From: an uncultured Rhizobiaceae group bacterium
GTDB taxonomy: Bacteria; Pseudomonadota; Alphaproteobacteria; Rhizobiales; Rhizobiaceae
Direction: 5' to 3'
DNA: 38,169 nucleotides
NCBI GenBank assembly: GCA_938010435.1
Contig: CALLUS010000029.1
Span: 1-38,169, forward strand
Shown: in pieces, positions 10,728 to 24,406 of the stretch
How positions within the stretch are numbered: position 1 is the stretch's first letter
Layout: the number at the start of each line of letters is the position of its first letter
Notes under the pieces: generated by a model
What the model was told of the DNA's origin: nothing
Database searches by the model: none
Seen by the model: the letters and a program-made list of their open reading frames with translations, nothing else
Made by a program: the position numbers and the translations under genes

Positions 10728-10812
10728 GCCCTCATGGCGAAATTGGTATACGCAGCAGACTTAAAATCTGTCACCTACGGGTTTGCCGGTTCAAGTCCGG
10801 CTGAGGGCACCA
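10728..10812 (+). tRNA. tRNA-Leu, anticodon TAA
   Basis: The 85-nt gene folds as a class II tRNA. The acceptor stem pairs GCCCTCA (10728-10734) with TGAGGGC, followed by discriminator A and an encoded CCA ending at 10812. The anticodon loop CTTAAAA is flanked by GCAGA and TCTGT, giving anticodon TAA. A variable arm and the T arm GCCGG-TTCAAGT-CCGGC are present. It reads UUA codons (and UUG by wobble). Confidence 0.97.
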
Positions 10813-10813
10813 A

Positions 10814-10838
10814 CGTCAATTCGCAAAGCGAAATGACG
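10814..10838 (+). terminator. Stem-loop immediately 3' of tRNA-Leu
   Basis: Arms CGTCA-A-TTCGC and GCGAA-A-TGACG (11 bp with one A-A mismatch) enclose an AAA loop, starting 2 nt after the CCA end. No strong T-run follows, so it may be a weak terminator or a processing element for the tRNA precursor. Confidence 0.5.
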
Positions 10839-10956
10839 CGACACACTTTCCCAAATTTCATAGCGGCAGTCGTTTGTGAATCAAGAGAGGAAAAGCTTTG
10901 GTTTTGTGTTGTCTTACTCTACAGCGCTATTCCACTACCAAATCAAAATATAAAAC

Positions 10957-11817
10957 TCACACCTCATCCTCAATCACATTCCGCAGCAACCCCACCCCCT
11001 CAATCTCCACCTCCACCACATCACCATCCCTCATCCACACAGGCGGTTTGCGGGCGTGGCCTACCCCTGATGGGGTGCCCATGAGGACGATGTCGCCGGG
11101 TTCTAGGGTCAGGCCTTCGGTGATGTAAACGAGAGTTTCCACCACGGGGAACATCATCATATCTGTGTTGCTGGATTGCATAGTTTCACCGTTCAAGCGG
11201 CAGGCAATATCGAGACCTTTGGCCCCTGCCGGCAACTCGTCTGCGGTGACGAAAACAGGGCCGAGTGGGCCTGTGTCATCGAAATTTTTTCCCATAGACC
11301 ACTGGATGGTGTGGCGTTGGTATTCGCGCACGGACCCATCATTGCAGCACGTGTAACCCGCCACAGCATCCAATGCGTTTTCAGGGGTCAGGTGGCGGGA
11401 TTTTTTGCTGATGACCAATGCAAGTTCGGCCTCATAATCCAGCGTCTCGGACACTTTTGGGCGAATGAGCGGTTTGTTGTGGGCCACCATTGAGGTGACC
11501 GAACGCATGAAGACAGTTGGGAATGGTTGTTTCTCAAAAATGCCCTCGTTCACATGCTCCATATAGTTCAAGCCAAGACAGAGGATTTTACCGGGCGCAC
11601 GGATGGGGATATCCAAATCGAGATCTTCGAGCTTATGTTTGTGTTCATCACCAGCGCGATCTGCGATGGCTTGAATGACCCCGAATTCATCGTTTGCAAT
11701 GGCGTTTTGCAAATCGTTGGGCGCAGACTTATCTATGGCAGACACATCTATGACATCGTCACCAGACACCACACCAATGCGGTGTTCGCCGCCCGATTGA
11801 AAACTGACCAAACGCAT
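10957..11817 (-). CDS. Fumarylacetoacetate hydrolase (FAH) family protein
   Basis: The 286-residue enzyme has the FAH C-terminal fold, whose members hydrolyse or isomerise 2-oxo or acylpyruvate-type intermediates of aromatic breakdown. The metal ligands are visible as Glu129 and Glu131 in DYEAELALVI and Asp160 in CCNDGSVRE. The entry motif GLNYMEHVNEG lies near residues 82-92 and the terminal GDVVEVEIEGVG is intact. It is transcribed divergently from the GntR regulator, with overlapping promoter elements, so it is probably under its control. The substrate is not determined: homologues include ureidoglycolate lyase, 2-hydroxyhepta-diene-dioate isomerase and acylpyruvase. The gene context favours an aromatic ring-cleavage product. 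Confidence 0.87.
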   Translation of the reverse strand: MRLVSFQSGGEHRIGVVSGDDVIDVSAIDKSAPNDLQNAIANDEFGVIQAIADRAGDEHKHKLEDLDLDIPIRAPGKILCLGLNYMEHVNEGIFEKQPFPTVFMRSVTSMVAHNKPLIRPKVSETLDYEAELALVISKKSRHLTPENALDAVAGYTCCNDGSVREYQRHTIQWSMGKNFDDTGPLGPVFVTADELPAGAKGLDIACRLNGETMQSSNTDMMMFPVVETLVYITEGLTLEPGDIVLMGTPSGVGHARKPPVWMRDGDVVEVEIEGVGLLRNVIEDEV

Positions 11818-11871
11818 ATTGAAATCCCATGTTCACTAAGGCTGCAATGCTAGACTGCGCCAGATGTTGAA

Positions 11872-11899
11872 ACAATAAAAAAACGATATATTTTGCCAA
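11872..11899 (-). promoter_or_regulatory. Predicted promoter of the FAH-family gene
   Basis: On the minus strand TTGGCA (plus 11894-11899) and TATTGT (plus 11872-11877) are spaced by 16 nt. The -35 box overlaps the -35 box of the divergent gntR promoter and the palindrome at 11889-11902. Confidence 0.5.
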
Positions 11900-11902
11900 A
11901 TA
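11889..11902. promoter_or_regulatory. Candidate GntR operator
   Basis: TATTTTGCCAAATA is a 14-bp palindrome with one mismatched pair. It covers the -35 boxes of both divergent promoters, the position expected for an autoregulating GntR repressor. Confidence 0.5.
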
Positions 11903-11921
11903 CTATAAAAATCCACATAAT
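11893..11921 (+). promoter_or_regulatory. Predicted promoter of the gntR-family gene
   Basis: TTGCCA (11893-11898) and CATAAT (11916-11921) are separated by exactly 17 nt, each matching the sigma-70 consensus in five of six positions. The start codon is 38 nt downstream of the -10 box. Confidence 0.62.
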
Positions 11922-11959
11922 GAATTCACGTTCCCGATGCTTCAATAAAAGGCACAGCA

Positions 11960-12670
11960 ATGCAGAATGAAATTTTAAACGAGACGGGTTCTGCTGCTCC
12001 ATCAGACTCTTCCAGCCCGGAATCTTTGACCAGCCGCGCTTATTTACGATTGAAGCAAGATATCATTTCAGGTCGCTTGATGCCGGGGCGCAAGTTGAAG
12101 ATTGAAGAGTTGCGCCGACAATATGATATCGGCACGAGCCCCATTCGCGAAGCACTCAGCCTGCTAACTTCTGATCATTTGGTTGAACGTTGGGATCAAC
12201 GGGGCTTTCGCGTGGCGAATGTGAGCGAAGGCGAATTTTCAGAATTGCTCAAAACCCGATGCTGGCTGGAAGAGCGCGCTTTGCGTGAATCCATTGCCAA
12301 CGGTTCCGACGAATGGGAGGAACGGGTCGTTCTTGCCAATCACCGTCTGTCCCGCATTCCACGATCTGAAGCGAGTGATCATTTTGTGGCCAACGCGAAA
12401 TGGGAAGAAGCCCACAAGCATTTTCACATGACGATTATATCTGAATGTGGCTCTTCAATTTTGCTGAAATTTTGCAAACAACTCTATGATCAAAATATTA
12501 GGTACCGTCAGTTGTCCGGTTCAAAAGCCTATCCGAAACGGGATATTGCTGACGAACACAATGCGATCTGCCAAGCTGTGTTGGCGCGAGATGCAAACAA
12601 GGCCGCTACCCTGCTCATCGACCACTACAAAAACACAGGGACATTTGTGCACTCTGAATTGACGGTCTAA
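11960..12670 (+). CDS. GntR-family transcriptional regulator (FCD subfamily)
   Basis: The 236-residue protein has an N-terminal winged helix (about residues 25-90, with the recognition region IGTSPIREALSLLTSDHLVE and the wing RGFRVA). A C-terminal all-helical FCD ligand domain (about 95-230) follows, with His residues such as those in EEAHKHFH that usually bind a metal near the effector pocket. FCD regulators typically respond to carboxylic acids. It diverges from the FAH-family gene, and its last 4 nt overlap the end of the dioxygenase gene on the other strand. It is the obvious candidate regulator of the surrounding catabolic genes and is probably autoregulated through the palindrome over its -35 box. 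Confidence 0.9.
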   Translation: MQNEILNETGSAAPSDSSSPESLTSRAYLRLKQDIISGRLMPGRKLKIEELRRQYDIGTSPIREALSLLTSDHLVERWDQRGFRVANVSEGEFSELLKTRCWLEERALRESIANGSDEWEERVVLANHRLSRIPRSEASDHFVANAKWEEAHKHFHMTIISECGSSILLKFCKQLYDQNIRYRQLSGSKAYPKRDIADEHNAICQAVLARDANKAATLLIDHYKNTGTFVHSELTV

Positions 12671-13536
12671 ACGCTGGACAAAATAAAGTCGAAGTCAACG
12701 ACGTAGAATTTGTCAGGAAGGTCGCTTTTAATGGCCAAATCATCAGATATACCCTCTGTTGAACTGCGTTCCTGATATTCCATCACCAGTTTTTCCCGCA
12801 CGCCGAACACTGCGTCTTCATCAAGATATGGGTCGTCACTTGGGAACACTTCGGTGACGAGAGATCTTTGGCCACTGGCTGTCACGATGAAATGTAAGTG
12901 CGATGGACGCCAAGGGTGACGACCTGTTGCTCGTAACAATTCGCCAACCGGCCCATCTTCAGGAACGGTATAAGGAGCTGGGCGCACGGTGGAAAACAGA
13001 TAGCGGCCGTCGGCCCCTGTCGTCATACGCGCGCGCAAATTGTATTCAGGTTGTTTCTCGTCTTGCCCGGAATACAAGCCGTTGTCCGCGGTTTGCCAAA
13101 TTTCCAATTGAGCACCTTCAATAGGATCGCCACCTGTGGTGAGAACACGGCCTCCCACAACAACGGCTGGGCCTTCGTTTTCGCCTTTGAGATCACCACC
13201 CACAGGAACGTCTGGCGCGCCCAAAACATGGAACGGGCCTAGTACGCTGGAAGGCGTTCCATCTTCCGGAGAGTTCACCATATCTACCAAAGAGGACAGG
13301 CCCAAAACATCGGAAAACAGAACGAACTCATTACGCTCTGGCGTGGAAATTTCACCTGCGCTGTAGAGAAGTTCCAAACCTTTGCGCCATTCATCATGGG
13401 TCAAATCGGTCTCTCTGACAAAATCATGGAGGTGGTGCGCCAGCTTTTCCAAAATAAATTTGAGACGCTCATCAGTCTCCTCAACCACATAATCAAGAAA
13501 AGATTGGGTGATGGTATCCTTGGAAACGGTACGCAT
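12667..13536 (-). CDS. Intradiol ring-cleavage dioxygenase, hydroxyquinol 1,2-dioxygenase-like
   Basis: The 289-residue protein belongs to the catechol/hydroxyquinol 1,2-dioxygenase family: non-haem Fe(III) enzymes that open an aromatic ring between two hydroxyls (hydroxyquinol gives maleylacetate). An N-terminal helical dimerisation domain (about 1-100) precedes the catalytic beta-sandwich with SSVLGPFHVLGAP, GAQLEIWQTADNGLYSG and RHPWRPSHLHF. Fe ligands are assigned as Tyr155, Tyr189, His213 and His215; the last three keep the spacing of the N. simplex hydroxyquinol enzyme (197, 221, 223). The length (close to 293) also favours a hydroxyquinol enzyme over a plain catechol enzyme, but specificity is inferred. 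It is the last gene of the minus-strand operon, 24 nt after the TRAP large permease. Confidence 0.88.
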   Translation of the reverse strand: MRTVSKDTITQSFLDYVVEETDERLKFILEKLAHHLHDFVRETDLTHDEWRKGLELLYSAGEISTPERNEFVLFSDVLGLSSLVDMVNSPEDGTPSSVLGPFHVLGAPDVPVGGDLKGENEGPAVVVGGRVLTTGGDPIEGAQLEIWQTADNGLYSGQDEKQPEYNLRARMTTGADGRYLFSTVRPAPYTVPEDGPVGELLRATGRHPWRPSHLHFIVTASGQRSLVTEVFPSDDPYLDEDAVFGVREKLVMEYQERSSTEGISDDLAIKSDLPDKFYVVDFDFILSSV

Positions 13537-13560
13537 AATAAAAGCTCCTTTGCGGAAGGC

Positions 13561-14871
13561 CTAACCCAAAATTCCGGTAGAAAGTACCGGAAAGCGGATG
13601 AGTAGAATAAGAACAAGCAACATGATGAAAGCGAATGGCAAAGCTCCCAAAAACACGTCTTTTAAAGAAATTGTAGGGTCGTTCAAACTCGCTTTGATCA
13701 CGAAACAGGAAATACCAAGCGGTGGCGTGAGCAGCCCGATTTCTGCACCAATTACGGTGACAATGCCGAACCATACCAAGCTCATGCCCATGGATTCAAC
13801 CAACGTTATGAAGAGCGGGACCACAATGAGAATGATGGAAGCTGTGTCCAAAATGGTTCCCAAGAACAACATCAACAACACATAGATCACCATCACCTCA
13901 AAGAAGCCGAATTGGCGCGCCTCAAGGAAAGTACCGAGTTCATTGGGCAAGCCTGCATAGCCGAGCATTCGGCTGTAAAGCGATGCCATGGCAATGAGGA
14001 ATAATATGGATGCTGTGATGTGGCCTGTCTCAATGGCTGTTTCCCAGAGACCACGGGCTGAAATTTTGCGCCGCGCCAATGCAATCAAAAGCGCAGCCAA
14101 TGCGCCGGCAGCACCCGCCTCAACGGGCGTAAGCCAGCCTGTATAAATACCGCCTAAGACAATGAAAATCAGCAATACCGTTGGCAAAGTTTTGTCTGCA
14201 ATCTCTGCATAAGACAACGGTTCGCCCACAGCCTCAGAAATGGATTCCCCCAAATAAGATGGATACAGTTTTCCGGAAATGAATATCCACATAATGTAGG
14301 CAGCGGTCAGGATAAGGCCTGGCACAATGCCTGCCAAGAACATGTCACCCACAGATTGCTCCGAAACAAATGAGTAGATGATCAGCATCGCGCTTGGTGG
14401 GATAATCATGCCCAATACAGACGAACCTGCCACCACGCCAACCGCGAACCTTTTGTTGTAATTGAGCTTACGCATTTCAGGTACGGCAATGCGGGTGAAC
14501 ACAGATGCAGACGCAATTGAGGACCCTGTGACAGCGGCAAACACTGCATTCGCGCCAACCGTCGCCACACCCACGCCCCCCGTGAGTGCACGGAACGCAC
14601 GGTTCATCACAGCATAGATATCAGTCCCTAACCCCGCTCGGGATACCAAAAGTCCCATAACTGTGAAAAGCGGAATGGTGGCGAACGGATATTCCGTGAC
14701 CCCGTCCCCCACTGCCACTTTCAGAAAATTGAAAGCAAGGATCGATTTACCGCTAATCAGCCAAATCGATACGAATGAAACAAGACCAAGTGCAACCGGA
14801 ATGTAGACGCCCAGATACACCAAAGTAACAATCGCGATGACCGAATAGGCACCAATTTCAACGGGACTCAT
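13561..14871 (-). CDS. TRAP transporter large permease (DctM family)
   Basis: This 436-residue membrane protein with about 12 hydrophobic segments is the large subunit of a tripartite ATP-independent periplasmic transporter, which uses the sodium gradient. Family stretches such as FPFATIPLFTVMG-like (here YPFATIPLFTVMGLLVSRAG), GSSVLGMIIPPSAMLIIYSF and GILTPPLG-like (here GLLTPPLGISCFVIKAS) are visible. The ATG overlaps the stop of the small permease (ATGA), which supports co-translation. Within the operon it lies between the small permease and the ring-cleavage dioxygenase, suggesting that the imported compound is an aromatic or organic acid. Confidence 0.93.
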   Translation of the reverse strand: MSPVEIGAYSVIAIVTLVYLGVYIPVALGLVSFVSIWLISGKSILAFNFLKVAVGDGVTEYPFATIPLFTVMGLLVSRAGLGTDIYAVMNRAFRALTGGVGVATVGANAVFAAVTGSSIASASVFTRIAVPEMRKLNYNKRFAVGVVAGSSVLGMIIPPSAMLIIYSFVSEQSVGDMFLAGIVPGLILTAAYIMWIFISGKLYPSYLGESISEAVGEPLSYAEIADKTLPTVLLIFIVLGGIYTGWLTPVEAGAAGALAALLIALARRKISARGLWETAIETGHITASILFLIAMASLYSRMLGYAGLPNELGTFLEARQFGFFEVMVIYVLLMLFLGTILDTASIILIVVPLFITLVESMGMSLVWFGIVTVIGAEIGLLTPPLGISCFVIKASLNDPTISLKDVFLGALPFAFIMLLVLILLIRFPVLSTGILG

Positions 14872-15485
14872 ACCGGGCTCTCCCCGTCATCCACCATTGC
14901 AGCTTGTCGGTTTCCTAAGATCACCTTGAAAGCGAAGATGATGGCACATGTTGTAACGCTGAACACGATGGCTAGTTTTGCAGGCCACCATGGGGCCGTA
15001 AAAATCCCGGGTGTTCCAAAATATTCACACCGTGCAAATGCGTCTGACAAATCCACCAAGAAGTCACCTGTTGGTGCCGGGCCGAATTCGGGTTGTGAGA
15101 AAAAGTGGCAAGACTCAAATGACTCTGTAAATTCTGGCCACATTGTCCAAGCGATCAGCGCCATAAAAATGCATGCAGCCAGGTCAATGGTTCGCGATAA
15201 AATATTTGCAAATTTAGGATGCTTCCCATCCATCAGGCCAAGAAAGCCATCTGACCGTGTGAGCCGATTGTGACGCACAACATCTGGCAACTGCAAGAAC
15301 ACGATCAGCACCAGAGAGAAGATAACGACTTCAACAACGCCTTTCAAAGGCGCGTGGAAAAGACCGCGGGCAATCACGTCAACATTCATTATTGCAACAA
15401 GCCCAAATATCACCAGTGTTCCGATGGTGTTGGCCAGAGTCGCAATCGTCAAAAAAGGTTTATAAAGACGGTGGACAGAATTCAT
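14868..15485 (-). CDS. TRAP transporter small permease (DctQ family)
   Basis: The 205-residue protein has four predicted membrane segments typical of DctQ, with the conserved GVVEVVIFSLVLIVFLQLPDV region in the second. The start is placed at the ATG at 15485 because GGAG lies 8 nt upstream; the GTG at 15494 would overlap that site. Between the third and fourth segments there is a longer loop than I expect for DctQ (about residues 120-165), with two cysteines (126 and 153). A family alignment would show whether this is a true insertion. It follows the binding-protein gene by 26 nt and overlaps the large permease. Confidence 0.9.
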   Translation of the reverse strand: MNSVHRLYKPFLTIATLANTIGTLVIFGLVAIMNVDVIARGLFHAPLKGVVEVVIFSLVLIVFLQLPDVVRHNRLTRSDGFLGLMDGKHPKFANILSRTIDLAACIFMALIAWTMWPEFTESFESCHFFSQPEFGPAPTGDFLVDLSDAFARCEYFGTPGIFTAPWWPAKLAIVFSVTTCAIIFAFKVILGNRQAAMVDDGESPV

Positions 15486-15511
15486 AAAAAACACTCCACC
15501 GTCTTCAAGAC

Positions 15512-16612
15512 TTAAAGTTCGCTTGCCCAGTCACGCACAGGCGTCATGCCTGCCGCTTTGAGCTTGGCGGAATAGGCTTTGAGCATATCTGAACCTGGTG
15601 CACCGGCTTTATCCAATTTTAAAGCCCAGTCTTTTGCAATGTTCGGCATGGATTTTGCCCATGCGGCGCGGGCCTCAGCGGACAATTCCACCACTTTGCC
15701 ACCACCCGCTTTGTACGCATCCAACGAAGACTTCGCACGATCCATGGCGATGCCGGCAACATGATCACGATACTCAACCGCAACCTGCTTGAGTACATCT
15801 TTCACTTCGTCAGGAAGCTTGTCCCAAACATCTTTATTCACTGTAACGGTCTTTGAGTTCACAGCACCGAGATCAACCTTCAACATATATGGGGCAACTT
15901 CAGCAATTTTGAACGTTTTAGCCGCTTCCGGCCACAACATTGCAGCGTCCACTACACCCGTTTGAACCATGTTGTAGAAATTTGGTAGGCCACCGCGAAC
16001 GCCAGCTGCACCTTCAATTCCCTCGAGATAGCGTAGATTGTAACCAGCACCAGCGACCTTCTTACCTTTTAGGTCGTCCAAAGAATTGATCGGTGTTTTG
16101 GAGAACAACTGATACGTGTCCAACACAACGCCTGTTGCCAGATAGACTTGGTTTTCCGCATTCAGTTCCTTCGTCATTTGCGGAAATTCTTTCGCAATTT
16201 CATCAACCGCTTTCGCCACAACACGTGCGTCCGGCGCTATGAATGGCGTAACCGCAGAAATACCTTGGCTCGGCAGTTTCGAGTTGTGGAAAATAGTTGT
16301 GACGATGCCGATGTCACCAAGACCCAACTTAATGCCTTCCAGAACACCGCGTGGCTTCACGATTTGTCCGCCATAAGCTTCTTGCCAGTTAATCGCGTAT
16401 TTATCAGACGCTTTAAGAAGTTCGTTCACGCGTGGAATGAAGAATCCCGAAAATTCTTTCACCCACATGGCGCGCGCGGGATAACCGTCAATGGCAATCA
16501 TATTGATAGTTTCTGCTGCATTGGCAGAGACGATGTTTCCGCCCGTCAAAGCGGTGAGCGAAACACCCATAGCCAAAAGGCTGCGGCGTGAGAATTTTTT
16601 GATATCAAACAT
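15512..16612 (-). CDS. TRAP transporter substrate-binding protein (DctP family)
   Basis: This periplasmic solute receptor has 366 residues from the ATG at 16612, which has a strong ribosome binding site (GGGAGG, about 7 nt upstream). The N-terminus MFDIKKFSRRSLLAMG is followed by a hydrophobic stretch and ANA|A. The SRRSLL sequence resembles a twin-arginine signal, so export might be through Tat. The DctP fold is indicated by DIGIVTTIFH, LDDLKGKKVAG, GVVDAAMLWPEAA and the helical C-terminus. The ligand cannot be read from sequence. It is followed by both permease genes and preceded by the OsmC gene (48 nt). Confidence 0.9.
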   Translation of the reverse strand: MFDIKKFSRRSLLAMGVSLTALTGGNIVSANAAETINMIAIDGYPARAMWVKEFSGFFIPRVNELLKASDKYAINWQEAYGGQIVKPRGVLEGIKLGLGDIGIVTTIFHNSKLPSQGISAVTPFIAPDARVVAKAVDEIAKEFPQMTKELNAENQVYLATGVVLDTYQLFSKTPINSLDDLKGKKVAGAGYNLRYLEGIEGAAGVRGGLPNFYNMVQTGVVDAAMLWPEAAKTFKIAEVAPYMLKVDLGAVNSKTVTVNKDVWDKLPDEVKDVLKQVAVEYRDHVAGIAMDRAKSSLDAYKAGGGKVVELSAEARAAWAKSMPNIAKDWALKLDKAGAPGSDMLKAYSAKLKAAGMTPVRDWASEL

Positions 16613-16660
16613 AGTTTTTCCTCCCAGATAAATTTTGTTTTGGTTAGACCAGCACACAAA

Positions 16661-17122
16661 TCATGCGCTGATCCATTCTTCGTCGATGATCGTTCCTGCC
16701 TGTTTGAACAGTTTTGACAGCGGACAGAATTTTGTCACTTCAGCGCTGAGTTTTGTGAGATCAGAGTCCGACACTGTAGTGCCTGTTTGAATTTTCAACG
16801 TGATTTTTTGAAATGGCACATCAATTTCTTCCACGAGCGTGACGCCTCTGCGATCGAACTCGCACACAGCATCAATGGTTAAATGTCCGATCTCGATGCC
16901 GAGACTGTTCGCACATTTATGGCCGATCACATTGGTACAGCCGATCAACGCCGATATTGCTGTATCCGTGGGTGTTGGCCCAAGATTGGTACCACCACGT
17001 TCCGTTGGTTCATCAATCGCAAAATTCAAATCTCGAACAGCCACGTTAGCAAGCGAATGCGAAGGACACTCGCCATTAGCGCGAAGCTTCACAGTCGTTT
17101 TTGGTCTGACATTCAACGCCAT
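16661..17122 (-). CDS. OsmC-family protein
   Basis: The 153-residue protein has the OsmC/Ohr fold, which in characterised members reduces organic hydroperoxides through two cysteines. Both are present, one in ALIGCTNVIGHKCA (central helix) and one in TKFCPLSKLF near the C-terminus. The length is usual. It is the second gene of the operon, 27 nt after the nitroreductase and 48 nt before the TRAP binding protein. Membership in a catabolic operon suggests protection from peroxides or electrophilic intermediates, or an enzymatic role on an intermediate; neither can be settled from the sequence. Confidence 0.88.
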   Translation of the reverse strand: MALNVRPKTTVKLRANGECPSHSLANVAVRDLNFAIDEPTERGGTNLGPTPTDTAISALIGCTNVIGHKCANSLGIEIGHLTIDAVCEFDRRGVTLVEEIDVPFQKITLKIQTGTTVSDSDLTKLSAEVTKFCPLSKLFKQAGTIIDEEWISA

Positions 17123-17149
17123 TGGGCGACCTCATTCAACAAATAGCAA

Positions 17150-17830
17150 CTAAGCATGGGAACAGACTTCATCGAAGTCAAAGCGCGGAAGACGCTGGAA
17201 CAGTGCAGTCTCGTCCGCAACACCAATGTTGCATAAGAAATTCGATCGCAATGTCGTGCCTGCAAAAAACTCTTCGTCAACAATCTTGTTAGAAAAACCA
17301 GACATCGCGCCAACATCAAGCCCCATGGCCCGTGCGGCGATCATTAAATACCCACCTTGCAAGGTTGAATTACGATAGGCTGTGTCCAAAATATAATCTG
17401 GATTTCCATCATAGAGATGGCGGCGATCATCGTGTGGAAAGAGCTTGGGTAGTTCTTTCCAGAAGTCCAGATCATAAGCGACGATTACGGTTAGCGGCGC
17501 GCCCATGACCTTTGGAACATTCGCAGGTTTGAGAGATTTTGCCAAACGCTCACGACCTTCCTGCGACCGCACAAAGACAAACCGAGCAGGACAACCATTC
17601 ATACTGGTCGACCCCATTTTTACGATGTCATACATGCGTTGGATTTGCTCATCCGTAACAGGCGTGTCTTTCCAAGCATAGTGGGATCGTGCACGGGTTA
17701 AAATGAGATCGATGGATGCTTGATCCAGTGATGAAATTTCGTTTCGCAAATCCACAATATCTTGTTGTGCAGCGGCCTGTTGCACTTCCAAAGACGAAGA
17801 TTGGCTATTGCTGTTTTCAGTTGATGACAT
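17150..17830 (-). CDS. Nitroreductase-family protein (RutE/HadB-like)
   Basis: The product (226 residues from the ATG at 17830; a TTG at 17848 is possible) belongs to the flavin-dependent nitroreductase superfamily. It is close to the RutE/HadB branch: LTRARSHYAWKDTPV, MGSTSMNGCPARFVFVRS, NSTLQGGYLMIAARAMGLD and GAMSGF near the end. RutE reduces malonic semialdehyde in uracil breakdown, while HadB/TcpB-type members act as quinone reductases in chlorophenol pathways beside a hydroxyquinol dioxygenase. No other rut gene is present and a ring-cleavage dioxygenase lies in the same operon, so the quinone-reductase role fits better; this is inference. It is the first gene of the operon, divergent from the YCII gene. 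Confidence 0.85.
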   Translation of the reverse strand: MSSTENSNSQSSSLEVQQAAAQQDIVDLRNEISSLDQASIDLILTRARSHYAWKDTPVTDEQIQRMYDIVKMGSTSMNGCPARFVFVRSQEGRERLAKSLKPANVPKVMGAPLTVIVAYDLDFWKELPKLFPHDDRRHLYDGNPDYILDTAYRNSTLQGGYLMIAARAMGLDVGAMSGFSNKIVDEEFFAGTTLRSNFLCNIGVADETALFQRLPRFDFDEVCSHA

Positions 17831-17860
17831 TTCGAATTTCGCGATCAATTCTGTTGTCGA

Positions 17861-17890
17861 AAAATACCCATATTAATGTCTGACGGTCAA
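17861..17890 (-). promoter_or_regulatory. Predicted promoter of the nitroreductase-TRAP-dioxygenase operon
   Basis: On the minus strand TTGACC (plus 17885-17890) and TATTTT (plus 17861-17866) are 18 nt apart. The perfect palindrome at 17892-17905 begins 1 nt upstream of the -35 box. Confidence 0.5.
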
Positions 17891-17891
17891 T

Positions 17892-17905
17892 AAATATCGA
17901 TATTT
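17892..17905. promoter_or_regulatory. Perfect palindrome between divergent promoters (candidate operator)
   Basis: AAATATCGATATTT is a perfect 14-bp palindrome. It abuts the -35 box of the minus-strand operon and overlaps the -35 region of the YCII gene, so one bound regulator could control both. Confidence 0.55.
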
Positions 17906-17931
17906 TCTTTTCTCTATCCCTCGGATATAAT
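17903..17931 (+). promoter_or_regulatory. Predicted promoter of the YCII-family gene
   Basis: A consensus TATAAT lies at 17926-17931 with a weak -35 (TTTTCT, 17903-17908) at 17 nt. The start codon is 28 nt downstream. The weak -35 suggests dependence on an activator or control at the overlapping palindrome. Confidence 0.5.
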
Positions 17932-17959
17932 CTTCCTGACAAATCATAGGGAAAACATC

Positions 17960-18346
17960 ATGCCAACATGGGAAGAATACAAAACAGCAGCCAAAGAGCG
18001 AGGGTCTTTGGCGTTTGAGCTTTATGTTGTAGAAAGCACTCCAGCTAAAACACCGGATGACCTAAAAGCGAATCTACCAGATCATCTTGCCTATCAGGCA
18101 AAACTGGAAGCTAAAGGACGTTTGTTTCTGGCTGGACCCATGTCTAACCCAACTGGCGAACAAATGCTGGGAACAGGTCTCATCGTCTACCGCGCATCCT
18201 CCATGGAAGATGCACGAAAAATTGCAGAAGGTGATCCGATGCACAGCACAGGCACCCGCACATTTGTTTTGCGCAAATGGATGATCAACGAGGGCTCTCT
18301 CTCCCTATCACTGTCGCTGTCTCAACAAACGATCAAAGTGTCCTAG
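17960..18346 (+). CDS. YCII-family protein
   Basis: The 128-residue protein has the YciI/muconolactone-isomerase-like ferredoxin fold. The family's conserved His is His42 (LPDHLAYQAKLEAKG) and the Asp is Asp92 (AEGDPMHSTGTRTFVLRKW). This pair forms the catalytic dyad in TftG, the YCII enzyme that removes chloride from 5-chlorohydroxyquinol. Here the gene is divergent from an operon with a quinone-reductase-like nitroreductase and a hydroxyquinol-type dioxygenase, the two activities needed after such a step, so a related role is plausible. After the domain the C-terminus carries an odd Ser-Leu repeat (GSLSLSLSLSQQ). The substrate is unproven. Confidence 0.85.
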   Translation: MPTWEEYKTAAKERGSLAFELYVVESTPAKTPDDLKANLPDHLAYQAKLEAKGRLFLAGPMSNPTGEQMLGTGLIVYRASSMEDARKIAEGDPMHSTGTRTFVLRKWMINEGSLSLSLSLSQQTIKVS

Positions 18347-18381: not shown

Positions 18382-19620
18382 TCACTTGCCACGCACTGCA
18401 TCTTCGTACCACTTCACCAACATCTGACGCTCCTCGACAGTCATGTTGGAAAGATTGCCCGGCGGCATGGCGTGGCTGCGGCCGGCTTGAATGTAAATCT
18501 CACGTGCATATTTGGCGATATCCGTTTCCTCTTCCAAGATCACGTCCTTTGGCGGAACAATCATACCCTCCCACACAGGTTCTTTGGCATGGCACATGGA
18601 ACAACGTCCCTGCACCGTTTCGGCCGCTTGCTGAAAGCCTTTGGCCGACATGAACTGTTGTTGGCGTGGCGTAATCAGTGATGCATTGGCTTCACCGGTC
18701 GACAATTTTGGCACCGTGGACAACCAAGCTGCCAAGACGAACAGAATGGCCGTCGCCAACCATGTCCAAGACGGTCCTTTTCCTGTTGAATGCATGGTGT
18801 TGAAATAGTGACGAATTGTGACACCCATCAAGAACACGAGCGCTGCGATGATCCAGTTGTATTCAGTGGCAAATGCCAAAGGATAGTGGTTCGACAACAT
18901 CAGGAACAAGACAGGCAAAGTTAGATAGTTGTTGTGGGTGGAGCGTTGTTTGGCGATGACCCCGTATTTCGGGTCAGGCGAACGGCCTGCCTTCAGGTCG
19001 GCCACCACGATGCGTTGGTTGGGCATGATGATGAAAAATACATTCGCCGTCATAATCGTTGCGGTGAAAGCGCCTAAATGTAAGAGCGCAGCCCTACCTG
19101 TGAAGACCTCGTTATATCCCCAAGCCATGGCCACAAGCAGAACGAAAAGCAACACCATCAAACCATTCATATTGCCACCGATGAACTTGCTCTTGCAGAG
19201 GAAGTCATAAATCACCCAGCCAATGGCCAACGACCCCGCCGAAATCGCAATGGCTTGCCAAACCTGTAAATCTGCTTTGGCGCGGTCGATGAGAAAGAGC
19301 TCCGCCCCTGCCCAATACATTATTGCCAGCAATGCTGCGCCCGAAAGCCAAGTGGAATAGCTTTGCCATTTGTGCCACGTGAGGTGTTCGGGCAATCTCG
19401 CCGGAGCGACCAAATATTTTGTGGTGTGATAGAACCCGCCGCCGTGGACTTCCCATTCTTCGCCGTAAGCGCCTTCGGGCATGTCTTCAGCAGGTTTTAA
19501 AGAGAGATCGAGCGCGATGAAATAAAAGCTCGCACCAATCCAAGCCATGGCCGTGATGACGTGTAACCAACGCACGGCAAAGCCGAGCCAATCCCACATC
19601 ACTGCATAATCGTAATACAT
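18382..19620 (-). CDS. puuD: Urate hydroxylase PuuD (membrane urate oxidase with cytochrome c domain)
   Basis: This 412-residue protein has an N-terminal membrane part of about eight hydrophobic segments (opening WLHVITAMAWIGASFYFIALD) and a C-terminal cytochrome c domain. The haem motif C340-S-M-C-H344 and a likely axial Met in HAMPPGN (about 385) are clear. PuuD oxidises urate to 5-hydroxyisourate and passes electrons to the respiratory chain instead of to oxygen, so no peroxide is made. The start at 19620 has GGGAG about 7 nt upstream; upstream codons lack family resemblance. It is divergent from a LysR regulator, and the next pathway enzymes are encoded at 21606-24406. Confidence 0.93.
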   Translation of the reverse strand: MYYDYAVMWDWLGFAVRWLHVITAMAWIGASFYFIALDLSLKPAEDMPEGAYGEEWEVHGGGFYHTTKYLVAPARLPEHLTWHKWQSYSTWLSGAALLAIMYWAGAELFLIDRAKADLQVWQAIAISAGSLAIGWVIYDFLCKSKFIGGNMNGLMVLLFVLLVAMAWGYNEVFTGRAALLHLGAFTATIMTANVFFIIMPNQRIVVADLKAGRSPDPKYGVIAKQRSTHNNYLTLPVLFLMLSNHYPLAFATEYNWIIAALVFLMGVTIRHYFNTMHSTGKGPSWTWLATAILFVLAAWLSTVPKLSTGEANASLITPRQQQFMSAKGFQQAAETVQGRCSMCHAKEPVWEGMIVPPKDVILEEETDIAKYAREIYIQAGRSHAMPPGNLSNMTVEERQMLVKWYEDAVRGK

Positions 19621-19681
19621 AGCCTGCTCCCAAACGCGTTCTGGGCGTGTCCTTACGCAACGTTGCAGACATTGCCAAATC

Positions 19682-19712
19682 TGGAATTCAACAATAATAC
19701 CGATAAATTCCA
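19682..19712. promoter_or_regulatory. Spaced inverted repeat between puuD and the LysR gene
   Basis: TGGAATT and AATTCCA form a perfect 7-bp inverted repeat with a 17-nt AT-rich spacer. It sits midway between the divergent start codons, where a LysR-type regulator would be expected to bind. It does not match the short T-N11-A box closely, so the assignment is tentative. Confidence 0.35.
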
Positions 19713-19751
19713 AGCACTTTCAAATTTTTCAAGGCAATGATAGGAAGCCCC

Positions 19752-20648
19752 ATGCCTTACGTTGCCAATCTCCGCACTTTCATCCGCGTTTATGATCTTG
19801 GAAACATGTCTGCCGCGGGGCGTGATTTGCGCATTTCGGCGGCCGTGGCAAGCAGCCGCATTTCCGAATTGGAAAAGCACCTCGGCGTGCGCCTGTTCAA
19901 CCGCACCACACGCAGTTTGAAACCCACGGAACATGGGGAACTGTTTTACAAAGGTGCGACCAAAATTCTGGACACAATCGAAGAAGCGGAAGGCAGCATT
20001 GCCGACGTCACCGCCAGCCCGAAAGGGTCGGTGTTCATCGCGGCTCCTCTCGGCATCGGCAAAAAAATCATCGCTCCCCTCGTCCCATCATTCAAAGCGA
20101 AATACCCTGATGTGAATGTACGGTTGCGGCTCACCGACCGCAAGATTGATATCACCAATGAAGGGCTAAACGCCGCTTTCGTTTTGGGGCAATTGCCGGA
20201 TTCAGAAATGCGCGTCCGCTCGCTTCACAATTTCGAACGCCTTCTGTGCGCATCGCCCGACTACATCACAAAACACGGCATGCCGAAAGATGGCGCAGAC
20301 TTGCACAACCACCAATGCCTGCTGCTGCGTTTCCCGGGCTTGGAAGAATTTTACTGGACGTTGCAGATCGACGGCAAAAACATCCGCCACAACCTCAACA
20401 GCCCCATGGAATCCGATGATGGCGACGTGCTCACCGCATGGGCGCTAGAAGGCTGTGGCATCGTCAACAAAACACGGTTCGAAGTGGAAGACGCATTGGC
20501 CAGCGGCCAGCTAGTGGAAATCCTCAAAAACACCCCACCCACATCAATCCCATTCTCCTGCATCTTCCCCCACAAACGATTGCAAGACCCGAAAACAAGA
20601 CTGTTAATCGAGCACATGGTTGAAGGGTGTAAAGCGCGGTTGGGTTAG
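19752..20648 (+). CDS. LysR-family transcriptional regulator
   Basis: The product (298 residues from the ATG at 19752) has an N-terminal helix-turn-helix with the LysR signature GNMSAAGRDLRISAAVASSRISELEKHLGVRLFNRTTRSL. A periplasmic-binding-like effector domain follows (about 88-290). The ATG at 19752 is chosen over 19737 because AGGAAG lies just upstream of it. It is transcribed away from puuD across a 131-nt spacer, so it probably controls puuD and perhaps the other urate genes, with urate or an intermediate as effector; that is inference from position. Confidence 0.9.
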   Translation: MPYVANLRTFIRVYDLGNMSAAGRDLRISAAVASSRISELEKHLGVRLFNRTTRSLKPTEHGELFYKGATKILDTIEEAEGSIADVTASPKGSVFIAAPLGIGKKIIAPLVPSFKAKYPDVNVRLRLTDRKIDITNEGLNAAFVLGQLPDSEMRVRSLHNFERLLCASPDYITKHGMPKDGADLHNHQCLLLRFPGLEEFYWTLQIDGKNIRHNLNSPMESDDGDVLTAWALEGCGIVNKTRFEVEDALASGQLVEILKNTPPTSIPFSCIFPHKRLQDPKTRLLIEHMVEGCKARLG

Positions 20649-20761
20649 AGGTTTTGGTGCTGAATACAGAATTGTGTGAACGTCAGCATTGCGGACTTTT
20701 CAGACCTTCGTCGCAACTGTTCGAATGACTGGTATCAGAAAGTTCAAGAAACTTACTGACT

Positions 20762-21496
20762 CTAAAAGCTGCGTCCAAGCAATGCTAATGCCGAAAGGGT
20801 TGCCAGCCCAAGTGCCCATGGCCGAATTGCACCGCGCGCAAATCGAGCAGCCAGTGGGCGGGAGGCCCAAAGCGCAACTGGAACCAATGGTGCGAGTGAC
20901 GCCGCAAACGCAAGCTGTGGCAGCGTGAGAACGCCTGCGACGGATAACGCAATGATAGCTACGAGCGTTCCAAAACCATAGAAGGCGTTTTGAGTAGCAG
21001 CAGCCCTTCGTGTTTCAACATTAGCGTACAAAATGGCCATCGGAGGTGCCCCGATACCGGTAAGCGTACCCATCACACCGCTGACACCACCAGCAGCAAA
21101 GAGAGACCTGTTGGAAATAGGGAATGACAGCCCTAGTACAGTCAAACCAACTGCAAAAAGCACGACCAGCCCGACAATGATCGCCAATGAATCTGTGCCA
21201 ACAACAGCCGTAGCGATGTATGCGGCAATTCCAGCGCCCAAGATGCGACCCGTAAATCCGGCTGGTAAGTCCCGCCACTGAACAGCATCTCTGCTACTCA
21301 AAAGCGACCCCGAGCCGATCAGGAACCCGACGAGGACAACGGTTCCGGGCAACCATTCGGGTGCGACCATCGCCATAACTGGCGCTGCAAACATTCCGTA
21401 GCCTGCCCCAGATAACCGCTGAACAAGGGTCCCGACGAAGACTGTTATGGCACAAACAAGCCAAGGTCCGATTTCCGGCAGTAATGTAGGTGGCAT
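20762..21496 (-). CDS. Sulfite exporter TauE/SafE (TSUP) family permease
   Basis: This 244-residue inner-membrane protein has about eight hydrophobic segments arranged as two halves, as in TauE/SafE (PF01925). Typical features are the N-terminal VQRLSGAGYGMFAAPVMAMVAPEWLPGTVVL and a matching second repeat beginning ISNRSLFAAGGVSGVMGTLTGIGAPPMAILY. TSUP members move organosulfur compounds, sulfite or other small anions. Its substrate is unknown. It lies 109 nt downstream of the hydroxyisourate hydrolase gene on the same strand, inside the urate cluster, which raises the possibility that it exports or imports a purine-pathway anion. Confidence 0.85.
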   Translation of the reverse strand: MPPTLLPEIGPWLVCAITVFVGTLVQRLSGAGYGMFAAPVMAMVAPEWLPGTVVLVGFLIGSGSLLSSRDAVQWRDLPAGFTGRILGAGIAAYIATAVVGTDSLAIIVGLVVLFAVGLTVLGLSFPISNRSLFAAGGVSGVMGTLTGIGAPPMAILYANVETRRAAATQNAFYGFGTLVAIIALSVAGVLTLPQLAFAASLAPLVPVALWASRPLAARFARGAIRPWALGLATLSALALLGRSF

Positions 21497-21605
21497 TCTA
21501 AAAACGTCTCTCTATCTGCATCGCTAAATAATCATCTACGGAAATAGCGGTCATTTATCTATAGCGCAGCGTCCGGTAAAATGGGCTCGAAGCTGCCACT
21601 CCCCC

Positions 21606-21965
21606 TCAACTCCCCCGATAGGTCGAAAAACTGAACGGTGAAGCCAATAGTGGCACGTGGTAGTGGCTGGTTGCGTCGTCTATTCCGAAGCGAATGGGGA
21701 CCACGTCTATAAACGAGTGGTCGCTTTTTGGGGCGTGGCCTTTGAAATAGTCACCAATTTTGAACACGAGTTCATATGTTCCCACGTCCAATTCCCCTTT
21801 TGGAATGATCGGGCTGTTGGTTCTGCCATCATCATTGGTGATGGTGGATGTCATGTGCGTTCTGACTTCACCATCCAGTTTGTAGAGATCGATGGACACA
21901 CCTTCTGCGGGGCAACCGCGGGCAGTATCCAGAATGTGGGTGGTGAGAAAACCTTGCTCGGCCAT
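21606..21965 (-). CDS. uraH: 5-Hydroxyisourate hydrolase (transthyretin-like)
   Basis: The 119-residue protein is a transthyretin-related HIUase, which hydrolyses 5-hydroxyisourate (the product of PuuD) to OHCU. The conserved N-terminal FLTTHILDTARGCPA (His of THVLD type) and the C-terminal SHYHVPLLASPFSFSTYRGS, ending in the diagnostic YRGS, are both intact. The start at 21965 is preceded by GGAG at 7 nt; an upstream frame extension lacks support. No signal peptide is present. It diverges from the PuuE-UraD gene across about 159 nt. Confidence 0.95.
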   Translation of the reverse strand: MAEQGFLTTHILDTARGCPAEGVSIDLYKLDGEVRTHMTSTITNDDGRTNSPIIPKGELDVGTYELVFKIGDYFKGHAPKSDHSFIDVVPIRFGIDDATSHYHVPLLASPFSFSTYRGS

Positions 21966-22124
21966 GACGATCTCCAAATGCAATTTTGAACCTGCACTCT
22001 AAGATGATATTTGCAGCGCACAAGCAATAGGCATACATGACTTTCAGTTCTTCAAATAAATTTTGAATATCTCAACGATCATTCGTCTATATCATGGAAT
22101 GCAGAACTCAAAAGGAAGCTGTCG

Positions 22125-23567
22125 GTGCATTACCCTCGAAACATGCGTGGTTACGGACCACAAACGCCCGATCCCCATTGGCCGAACCCAAATGGCAAAG
22201 GGTCGGATAAAGGCGGCGCGAAAATCGCGGTGCAATTTGTGGTCAATTACGAAGAAGGTGGTGAGAACTGTACACTCCATGGGGACGCAGGTTCTGAAGC
22301 GTTTTTATCTGAAATCGTTGGCGCAGCTTCATGGCCGGACCAACGCCATTGGAACATGGAATCGATCTATGAATATGGCGCGCGGTCAGGCTTCTGGCGT
22401 TTGCACCGTTTGTTCACTGAAAACCATATTCCCGTCACGGTTTATGGCGTTGCCACAGCTTTGCAGCGTTCGCCGGAACAAGTGCAAGCCATGTTGGATG
22501 CGGATTGGGAAATCGCATCACACGGTTTGAAATGGGTAGAGTATAAAGACTTCGCCCGTGAAGATGAAAAAACCTGTTTGGATGAGGCCGTTGTGCTGCA
22601 CACTGCTGTCACAGGCGAACGTCCACGCGGATGGTATTTGGGGCGCTGCAGTGAGAACACAGTCGACCTTGTCACCGAAGAAGGTAGTTTTGATTATATT
22701 TCCGACACTTATGACGACGATCTGCCCTATTGGCGCAACCATGCGGACCGCGATCAACTGATTATTCCCTATACGCTGGATTGCAACGACATGCGCTTTG
22801 CCACACCGCAAGGGTTTAACTCTGGCGATCAATTCGAAACCTATCTGCGCGATACATTCGACACGCTTTATGCTGAAGGCCAAGCTGGTCAAGCGAAGAT
22901 GATGAACATCGGATTGCACTGCCGTCTCATTGGTCGACCCGGCCGATTGGCTGCGCTCAAACGTTTTATCGAGTATGCAAAGTCTCACGATGATGTTTGG
23001 TTTGCGCGCCGTATTGATATTGCAGACCATTGGGCCGCAACCCATCCGCCTGCTCCTCAAAAAGAACAACCATCGCTGGTCAGCAAGAACGAATTCGTTT
23101 CAAAATATGGTGGCGTGTTTGAACATTCTCCGTGGATTGCAGAGCACGCTTACGATGCTGGCCTTGGCGCGGCCAACGACACGGCAAACGGCTTGCATTA
23201 TGCCATGAAAATTCAGTTCCGCTTGGCAAGCAATGAACAACGCCTCGGCGTGTTGAATGCCCACCCAGACCTTGCGGGCAAACTTGCAGCAGCAAATCGT
23301 CTCACGGCAGAATCCACCAGCGAACAGGCAAGCGCGGGTCTGGATTCACTCACTGATGAAGAACGCGTCACGTTCACATCACTGAACAGCCAATACACCG
23401 AGAAATTCGGATTCCCCTTCATCATCGCCGTGAAGGGGCTGACCAAAGCGCATATTCTTGATGCGTTTAAAACACGGATCGACAATGACCGTGATACAGA
23501 ATTCAACACGGCCTGTTTGCAGGTTGAGAAAATCGCACTCCTGCGTTTGAAAGATTTACTGTCATGA
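22125..23567 (+). CDS. puuE: Allantoinase PuuE fused to OHCU decarboxylase UraD
   Basis: The 480-residue protein joins two enzymes. Residues about 1-308 are a PuuE-type allantoinase of the polysaccharide-deacetylase fold (AVQFVVNYEEGGEN, ASHGLKWVEY, GLHCRLIGRPGR), which converts allantoin to allantoate without the metal centre of classical allantoinases. Residues about 318-478 are UraD, which decarboxylates OHCU to S-allantoin (FEHSPWIAE with His334, HPDLAGK 380-386, FTSLNSQYTEKFGFPFI). The domain order is opposite to the reaction order (UraD acts first). The start codon is GTG at 22125 with AAGGAAG 6 nt upstream. Its stop overlaps the next gene (ATGA). The fusion would channel the intermediate between steps. 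Confidence 0.93.
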   Translation: MHYPRNMRGYGPQTPDPHWPNPNGKGSDKGGAKIAVQFVVNYEEGGENCTLHGDAGSEAFLSEIVGAASWPDQRHWNMESIYEYGARSGFWRLHRLFTENHIPVTVYGVATALQRSPEQVQAMLDADWEIASHGLKWVEYKDFAREDEKTCLDEAVVLHTAVTGERPRGWYLGRCSENTVDLVTEEGSFDYISDTYDDDLPYWRNHADRDQLIIPYTLDCNDMRFATPQGFNSGDQFETYLRDTFDTLYAEGQAGQAKMMNIGLHCRLIGRPGRLAALKRFIEYAKSHDDVWFARRIDIADHWAATHPPAPQKEQPSLVSKNEFVSKYGGVFEHSPWIAEHAYDAGLGAANDTANGLHYAMKIQFRLASNEQRLGVLNAHPDLAGKLAAANRLTAESTSEQASAGLDSLTDEERVTFTSLNSQYTEKFGFPFIIAVKGLTKAHILDAFKTRIDNDRDTEFNTACLQVEKIALLRLKDLLS

Positions 23568-24406
23568 CCACCAAACCCACGCGCACTTATTTCAAGCCAG
23601 AAGGTGGCCTGCCGCCGCAAACGGCACGTATGGATGAACGCGCGGTGTTCACCGACGCTTATGCTGTGCTTCCCGCCAACACGATGAGTGACATCACGGC
23701 GAGCTTCTTGCCCTTCTGGGACAAAACGCGGTTGTGGATCATCGCGCGCCCTCTTTCAGGATTTGCCGAAACCTTCTCCCAGTATATCATGGATGTGGAA
23801 CCCGACGGTGGAAGCGAAAAACCAGAACTCGACGACACAGCAGAAAGTGTTTTGTTCGTCGTGGATGGGAAAATGCGTCTGGTGATTGATGACGAAACTT
23901 TTGAAATGACCGAAGGCGGATATGCCTTCATTCCACCCGCTGCCAATTGGAGTGTGAAAAACACATCATCCAACAACGTGCGCTTTCACTGGATTCGCAA
24001 ACAATATGAAGCGGTGGACGGTATCGATGCACCAACGGCCTTTGTGGTCAACGAACAAGACATTGAACCCACCGTCATGCCAGACACCGAAGGCAAATGG
24101 GCGACAACACGTTTTGTGGATGCCTCAGACATGCGCCACGACATGCATGTGACCATTGTGACTTTCCAGCCCGGCGGTGTAATCCCCTTTCCCGAAACCC
24201 ATGTGATGGAACACGGGCTTTACGTGCTGGAAGGCAAAGCCGTTTACAAACTCAATCAAGATTGGGTGGAAGTGGAAGCCGGAGATTTCATGTGGCTGCG
24301 CGCCTTCTGCCCACAAGCCTGTTATGCAGGCGGCCCAACCCCGTTCCGCTATCTGCTTTACAAAGATGTAAACCGCCACGCGAAACTGGGAAGTTACGTA
24401 CGATAA
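23564..24406 (+). CDS. allE: (S)-ureidoglycine aminohydrolase (bicupin)
   Basis: The 280-residue protein has two cupin domains. It matches the ureidoglycine aminohydrolase family: YAVLPANTMSDITASFLPFW and RLWIIARPLSGFAETFSQYIM in the first half. The metal site in the second half has Glu211, His213, His217 and Gln251, the same spacing as the Mn ligands of the plant enzyme. It releases ammonia from S-ureidoglycine to give S-ureidoglycolate. It is translationally coupled to the PuuE-UraD gene (4-nt overlap). The step between allantoate and ureidoglycine (allantoate amidohydrolase) is not encoded in the window. Confidence 0.93.
   Translation: MTTKPTRTYFKPEGGLPPQTARMDERAVFTDAYAVLPANTMSDITASFLPFWDKTRLWIIARPLSGFAETFSQYIMDVEPDGGSEKPELDDTAESVLFVVDGKMRLVIDDETFEMTEGGYAFIPPAANWSVKNTSSNNVRFHWIRKQYEAVDGIDAPTAFVVNEQDIEPTVMPDTEGKWATTRFVDASDMRHDMHVTIVTFQPGGVIPFPETHVMEHGLYVLEGKAVYKLNQDWVEVEAGDFMWLRAFCPQACYAGGPTPFRYLLYKDVNRHAKLGSYVR

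Follow-up and report, generated by a model that had tools for sequence, protein, structure and literature searches.

A conserved gene island pairing a TRAP transporter with a hydroxyquinol-type dioxygenase in a Rhizobiaceae bacterium: a possible tetrahydroxybenzene-type pathway ending in malonate

The stretch of DNA analysed here (hereafter the window) is 38,169 nucleotides long and corresponds to contig 29 of the 3.57-Mb genome, listed as 100% complete, of an uncultured Rhizobiaceae bacterium. It carries an island of nine genes that combines a tripartite ATP-independent periplasmic (TRAP) transporter with an intradiol ring-cleavage dioxygenase. Six genes follow one another on the minus strand, in the order: a RutE-like flavoprotein of the nitroreductase family, possibly a quinone reductase (17150..17848), an OsmC-like protein with conserved cysteines (16661..17122), the TRAP binding protein DctP (15512..16657), the small permease DctQ (14868..15494), the large permease DctM (13561..14871) and an intradiol dioxygenase of the hydroxyquinol 1,2-dioxygenase type (12667..13536). 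These genes very likely form one transcript, because the gaps between them are as short as 27, 3, 17, -4 and 24 bases. A YCII protein gene (17960..18346, plus strand) diverges from the nitroreductase gene, a GntR/FCD transcriptional regulator gene (11960..12670, plus strand) converges with the dioxygenase gene and overlaps its end by 4 bases, and a separate minus-strand gene (10957..11817), divergent from the regulator, encodes an acylpyruvase-like FAH-family hydrolase, a candidate for splitting the ring-cleavage product.

A preliminary description made from the letters alone had proposed this layout, and all nine open reading frames were found with the coordinates and strands it gave. Every expected family was matched in a Pfam search: PF01557 (FAA_hydrolase, E 1.7e-66) for the hydrolase, PF00392 and PF07729 for the regulator, PF00775 and PF04444 (Dioxygenase_C and Dioxygenase_N) for the dioxygenase, PF06808 for DctM (with TIGR00786 above its cut-off), PF04290 for DctQ, PF03480 for DctP, PF02566 for the OsmC-like protein, the Nitroreductase family for the flavoprotein and PF03795 for the YCII protein. 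A promoter and terminator scan gave nothing beyond the level of shuffled sequence. A shared GntR operator was rejected, as the loose pattern TNGTN2-4ACNA was absent from both divergent regions of the window and occurred in only 4 of 20 regions from relatives.

The dioxygenase was compared with proteins of solved structure. Its best relatives, PnpC, 6-chlorohydroxyquinol dioxygenase (E 5e-69) and hydroxyquinol dioxygenases, together span E 1.8e-71 to 7.9e-63; the best catechol-type relative reaches only 6e-38, and the catechol equivalog models remain below their cut-offs. Tyr155, Tyr189 and His213, which we take to be iron ligands, are kept in 31/31 sequences, and the second His is present in the window sequence. 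Leu73, Asp76, Val98 and Gly100, at positions presumably lining the substrate pocket of 1TMX, are likewise kept in 31/31; Leu99 stands where 1TMX has Phe, as it does in 15 canonical sequences. By sequence, this is a dioxygenase of the hydroxyquinol type, as the preliminary description had suggested, with the catechol enzymes more distant: solved relatives and pocket residues agree. A Dioxygenase_C search of the window's genome returned this gene and no other.

We searched other genomes for the same gene set. In a scan of named genomes, relatives of the dioxygenase (56-85% identity) turned up at 19 loci, ten of which entered the genome-level searches. Among 397 genomes of the window genome's own order, 107 had a dioxygenase match at E <= 1e-60 and 15 (its own included) a match of at least 55% identity, the next matches reaching at most 48%; 385 genomes of its class gave six matches at E <= 1e-85, its own included. 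After removal of L052 and L057 as copies of L041 and L043, the tally held 34 cluster loci, 23 of them at least 18 kb long, and nine controls, namely seven of the 15 canonical-type dioxygenase loci of the order sample together with L085 and L086 from the class sample. Three loci of 46-50% identity were sorted by their neighbours, an outcome-based choice that placed L087 with the cluster and L085 and L086 with the controls. With identity thresholds of our own choosing, the cluster loci contained GntR in 31 cases, DctM and DctQ in 29 each, DctP and the nitroreductase in 27 each, YCII in 26, and OsmC and the FAH hydrolase in 22 each. At identical thresholds the controls yielded one weak DctQ and nothing else of the set; two of them (L065 and L070) carry another type of TRAP transporter, whose DctM (43-47% identity) and DctP (30-34%) fall below the thresholds. 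In the tree of dioxygenases a 98/97 branch sets the cluster members apart with two exceptions, both long-branched rows of a kind that the program warns of: L087 groups with the canonical enzymes and the control L086 among the cluster members. Several carriers are marine alphaproteobacteria, by name or source, such as Pararhodobacter oceanensis and Pacificitalea. The TRAP, nitroreductase, YCII, GntR and dioxygenase genes are a conserved unit and not a chance assembly, the recurrence of the first four in 26-31 of the 34 loci bearing out the grouping first made from the window.

The FAH hydrolase also belongs to the system, a point that the preliminary description had overlooked. Among its solved relatives are L-2,4-diketo-3-deoxyrhamnonate hydrolase and the human acylpyruvase FAHD1, with isomerase/decarboxylases of the HpaG kind ranking equally high and maleylpyruvate hydrolase more distant (E 7e-24); the highest-ranking NCBIfam model, though short of its cut-off, describes an enzyme of a 2,4-diketo acid. 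H88, E91, E129, E131 and D160 are invariant in 21/21 sequences and presumably play the catalytic His/Glu and metal-ligand roles known from FAHD1. The protein is thus predicted to have the FAA_hydrolase fold, the catalytic His/Glu and the metal ligands of an acylpyruvase. Taken with three proteins encoded by its relatives, namely MatA (malonyl-CoA decarboxylase), MatB (malonyl-CoA synthetase) and a LeuA-like enzyme, it points to a lower pathway.

This LeuA/homocitrate-synthase-like gene adjoins the cluster in L041, L043, L047 and loci related to them; the enzyme of L041 (11022-12317) reached the cut-off of no NCBIfam model among the best 25 of the 28 matched. FAH, LeuA-like and hydroxylase genes were searched in 26 cluster genomes, leaving out the 76% complete genome G078, whose locus L058 has an FAH gene and which was not among the LeuA-like matches in the order sample. 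Cluster-type FAH was found in 17 of the 26 genomes and the LeuA-like gene in the other nine, with no genome holding both or neither (FAH at E <= 2e-75; LeuA-like at E < 1e-220, with nothing weaker down to 1e-70). The same searches found neither gene in five control genomes. Three LeuA-type genomes (G040, G080 and G115) have an FAH of 42-43% identity elsewhere (E 4e-64 to 4e-66), and these proteins fall outside the operon-FAH clade (89/88, below the program's mark for sure branches). In G024 and G181 the FAH genes lie on other contigs, inside that clade and beside nitroreductase, OsmC and DctP genes. The mutual exclusion gives a Fisher value of 3e-7 over the 26 genomes and of 5e-5 when these are collapsed by genus where a genus is given, kinship above the genus remaining. 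In the order sample, searched at E <= 1e-120 with up to four candidates scored in each genome, the LeuA-like gene occurred in 7/397 genomes, all seven being among the 15 cluster-bearing ones. In two genomes (G231 and G071) it stands beside OsmC-DctPQM (L131 and L132), with the dioxygenase, MatA and MatB genes on another contig. Such a pattern is what two unrelated enzymes sharing the same step would give, although it could also mark two variants of the pathway. The LeuA-like enzyme contains the stretch GNGLGERTGN, of the form GxGERxGN that we take to be a feature of acetyl-CoA-condensing enzymes; by analogy, its step may depend on CoA.

Maleylacetate reductase, the usual successor of hydroxyquinol 1,2-dioxygenase, was sought with a probe taken from one control locus and itself closest to solved maleylacetate reductases. 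At E <= 1e-5 it was found near none of the 34 cluster loci and in 5/9 controls, one of them the source of the probe. The preliminary description had thus been right that the island lacks this gene; its suggestion that the gene might lie elsewhere fared less well, the best match in the window's genome being an iron alcohol dehydrogenase of 32% identity (E 2.9e-22). A true reductase (47-100% identity, E <= 3e-100) is present in all three control genomes and in 7/27 cluster genomes. Malonate genes show the opposite distribution: MatA or MatB was found in 15/34 cluster loci and in 0/9 controls (Fisher 0.017, kinship ignored), or in 14/33 against 0/7 after the three outcome-sorted loci are dropped. 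Their placement varies, next to YCII in L036, L037, L048, L049, L051, L061 and L084, after the dioxygenase in L042, L045, L054 and L087, divergent from it in L039, L062 and L063, and after GntR in L047. MatA (PF05292) was counted by protein query in 27 genomes, an earlier PF05292 search of the window's genome having had no positive control, and was present in 21 of them; MatB of at least 57% identity was present in 25, the exceptions being G049, with only a 35% match, and G742, with none. Both counts cover cluster genomes only.

The YCII protein had been likened to TftG. A profile built from 14 orthologues retrieves HI0828 (E 0.00055) and TftG (E 0.014), the AlphaFold model (pLDDT 87.6) has HI0828, TftG and chloromuconolactone isomerase as best Foldseek matches, and His42 and Asp92 are invariant in 22/22 sequences. 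The likeness therefore holds as regards the fold, the conserved His/Asp and the place of TftG beside HI0828 at the top of the solved matches, but not as a particular kinship, since HI0828 outscores TftG in both sequence and fold. The nitroreductase exceeds the cut-off of the RutE model PRK05365 (267.3 vs 152 bits), which is named for malonic semialdehyde reductase; HadB and TcpB presumably belong to the same family. In the OsmC-like protein, Cys62, Cys70 and Cys133 are invariant in 16/16 sequences. Its gene is missing from L047 and L048 and from the L051 operon, all of which retain the TRAP, nitroreductase, YCII and dioxygenase genes; the L051 plasmid does carry a longer gene of the OsmC family, about 9 kb past the operon. 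The idea that OsmC supplies the missing working enzyme was thus not borne out: with 22/34 loci and absences where the rest of the set stays, a key role is rejected and an obligatory one is not supported, and we regard it as accessory.

The binding protein belongs to a subfamily other than that of MatP. All 25 aligned DctP sequences, the window's included, have Ala202 where MatP of Sinorhizobium meliloti has an arginine that is, to our knowledge, nearly universal among TRAP binding proteins; identity to MatP is 28% over 181 residues. DctP cousins of 35-40% identity on plasmids of Leisingera, Thalassospira, Pseudosulfitobacter and Pacificitalea likewise lack the arginine, and the first three adjoin FAH genes, variously with YciI, quinone reductase, glutathione S-transferase (GST) and metallo-beta-lactamase (MBL) genes. 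The Leisingera plasmid operon (L103:2219-12783) comprises YciI, a VOC-family protein, FAH, two quinone oxidoreductases, a related TRAP transporter and acetoacetate-CoA ligase, and looks like a sister pathway. An attempt to read the ligand from the fold was uninformative: the DctP model is mediocre (pLDDT 73.6) and Foldseek returned many TRAP proteins, binders of aromatic acids and of sialic acids alike.

We tentatively read the island as an aromatic-catabolic unit in which a tetrahydroxybenzene-type ring is cleaved and converted to pyruvate and malonate, an interpretation to which we give rather less than an even chance and in which we infer the substrate, the intermediates and every reaction. 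DctPQM would import a small aromatic or quinone-like anion, which the flavoprotein would keep reduced while the YCII protein would process a quinone or lactone form. The dioxygenase would open a hydroxyquinol-type ring bearing an extra hydroxyl adjacent to the bond that is cut. A 2-oxo acid, which maleylacetate is not, is required by FAH acylpyruvases and LeuA-type enzymes alike, and intradiol cleavage would yield one only if a hydroxyl also sits on a ring carbon adjoining the cleaved bond. Together with the pocket's demand for a 4-hydroxyl, this need points to 1,2,3,5-tetrahydroxybenzene, most simply, or a substituted form, which would give 2,4-dioxoadipate (malonylpyruvate), a 2-oxo acid. 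FAH would split a C-C bond of this compound to pyruvate and malonate, the LeuA-like metal enzyme replacing it in other lineages, and such a hydrolysis would explain MatA and MatB: malonate would pass to malonyl-CoA (MatB) and on to acetyl-CoA (MatA) in most relatives, and would end at malonyl-CoA in the window's organism, for instance for fatty acid synthesis. A ring with one more hydroxyl accounts for more of the data than the hydroxyquinol stage previously proposed. The fuller version, a bacterial central pathway of the 1,2,3,5-tetrahydroxybenzene type with intradiol cleavage to malonylpyruvate and an interchangeable FAH or LeuA-like last step (the latter perhaps CoA-dependent and giving malonyl-CoA directly), ending in malonate and not in 3-oxoadipate, is more doubtful.

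Several results weigh against this reading. The dioxygenase pocket resembles that of ordinary hydroxyquinol enzymes, and the seven cluster genomes with a true maleylacetate reductase carry it away from the cluster. The window's genome lacks MatA and has its MatB (68%) on a separate contig, contig 7, and G742 combines the cluster, FAH and a maleylacetate reductase with neither MatA nor MatB. The unit has no ring hydroxylase as a regular companion: an MhpA-type gene in L049, which has a 63% relative in the window's genome, was rejected as a partner, being present in only 3/26 cluster genomes and in 0/15 others. The LeuA-like enzyme, with its GxGERxGN stretch, may catalyse a reaction other than that of FAH; the FAH threshold behind the exclusion was set after the hits had been seen, and the lineages are not independent. 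Finally, Aspergillus niger, which converts gallate to tetrahydroxybenzene, is reported to grow unimpaired on gallate after the loss of 17 putative dioxygenase genes, among them that for hydroxyquinol (PMC12388069).

Three other explanations deserve weighing. Ordinary cleavage of hydroxyquinol to maleylacetate, with FAH acting in the manner of maleylpyruvate hydrolase to give maleate and acetate in place of the reductase step, would suit the pocket, the presence of maleylpyruvate hydrolase among the solved FAH relatives, the fumarase genes in L044 and L046 and the reductases elsewhere in seven genomes, and it predicts the gene content of G742. We nonetheless think it unlikely, if worth serious attention: it leaves the malonate genes of 15 loci unexplained, maleylacetate would offer the LeuA-like enzyme no 2-oxo acid, and enzymes acting on 2,4-diketo acids are among the nearer relatives of FAH. 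Those same malonate genes would go unexplained if the cluster encoded a halogenated-aromatic route of the TftG/TcpB/TcpC type, in which YCII dehalogenates a halohydroxyquinol, the flavoprotein reduces the quinone and the dioxygenase opens the ring. The place of TftG among the YCII structural matches and the closeness of the dioxygenase to 6-chlorohydroxyquinol dioxygenase speak for such a route, as does the marine origin of some carriers, bromophenols occurring in the sea. It is made improbable by the weakness of the TftG similarity, no better than that to HI0828, by the lack of maleylacetate reductase in all 34 loci, and by the lack of a recurrent monooxygenase, a flavin adenine dinucleotide (FAD) hydroxylase appearing only in L049 and L058 among the classified neighbours. 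The MatA/MatB linkage might alternatively come from the transporter, were it a malonate importer of the matPQMAB kind, as the side-by-side GntR, matPQM, matA and matB genes of S. meliloti would suggest (PMC5237526). The low identity of DctP to MatP and its missing arginine, the FAH genes beside three of the four DctP cousins, and the absence of any mat gene from 17 of the 29 loci with this DctM (some of these stretches being incomplete) leave that explanation a very slim chance.

Some further neighbours deserve mention; these were classified selectively, as recurrent or informative-looking genes. In L062 and L063 the dioxygenase and MatAB are paired with a different TRAP system. L062 also has an arylsulfatase-like gene and a DASS/CitMHS-type transporter, as if the substrate arrived as a sulfate ester, and L063 has open reading frames similar in size and order. 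An MBL-fold gene, which could encode a lactonase, occurs in 7/34 cluster loci and, for two loci that are split, beside the second half (L121 and L122); for the protein at L032:10708-11772 the nearest NCBIfam model is GntH, far below cut-off. The window's genome seems to have further aromatic routes independent of the island's dioxygenase: by eye, L100 and L101 (contigs 17 and 30) hold PobA with a protocatechuate 4,5-cleavage cluster, and a Box-type benzoyl-CoA cluster with a FAD hydroxylase. In the window itself, a tRNA-Leu (anticodon TAA, 10728-10812) lies 144 bases from the end of the FAH gene, overlapped by an open reading frame (10734-11084) that is probably an artefact. On the other side the island adjoins what looks by eye like a urate-degradation cluster (18382-24406), with genes for a membrane urate hydroxylase, a LysR regulator, a TauE-like protein, hydroxyisourate hydrolase and an allantoinase-like protein.

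The component enzymes are of known families; no published description of this bacterial cluster was found in the literature searched, which covers few subscription journals. Searches on hydroxyquinol with TRAP transporter and OsmC, or on malonylpyruvate/dioxoadipate, returned nothing; those combining hydroxyquinol, mat genes, FAH and TRAP gave matches whose titles were unrelated to hydroxyquinol, and no bacterial tetrahydroxybenzene route appeared by title among the matches listed. Brown algae produce polyhydroxybenzenes in quantity. In fucoid algae, a tetrahydroxybenzene, hydroxyquinol and pyrogallol have been annotated alongside phloroglucinol (PMC13412289). If the proposal is true, bacteria would have a new lower pathway, one that does without maleylacetate reductase and has malonate as its end product, and the exchange of one step between two unrelated enzyme families would offer a clean handle on its chemistry. 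The proposal also makes a named, testable prediction for genes publicly annotated as 'C4-dicarboxylate TRAP transporter' and 'malonic semialdehyde reductase'.

Compared with the classical hydroxyquinol pathway, made of hydroxyquinol 1,2-dioxygenase and maleylacetate reductase, the island shares the dioxygenase family and pocket, but its loci lack the reductase and have FAH or a LeuA-like enzyme and malonate genes instead. The 2,4,5-trichlorophenoxyacetate (2,4,5-T) and 2,4,6-trichlorophenol routes use TftG, TcpB/HadB and TcpC in their known roles; common to them and the cluster are the YCII fold, a nitroreductase-family protein and a dioxygenase near the 6-chlorohydroxyquinol enzyme, whereas the cluster has no recurring monooxygenase or maleylacetate reductase and adds its own TRAP transporter and FAH. 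A central pathway through 1,2,3,5-tetrahydroxybenzene has been published for fungi, to which it is said to seem restricted at present (PMC13094099). The proposed ring intermediate is the same, but the ring opener proposed in Aspergillus nidulans is a DUF3500-domain protein (PMC12388069), where we propose an intradiol dioxygenase. Finally, matPQMAB of S. meliloti sets GntR, TRAP, MatA and MatB side by side, as in the mat-linked cluster loci, from which it differs in that the cluster has a binding protein of another subfamily together with the dioxygenase, YCII and FAH.

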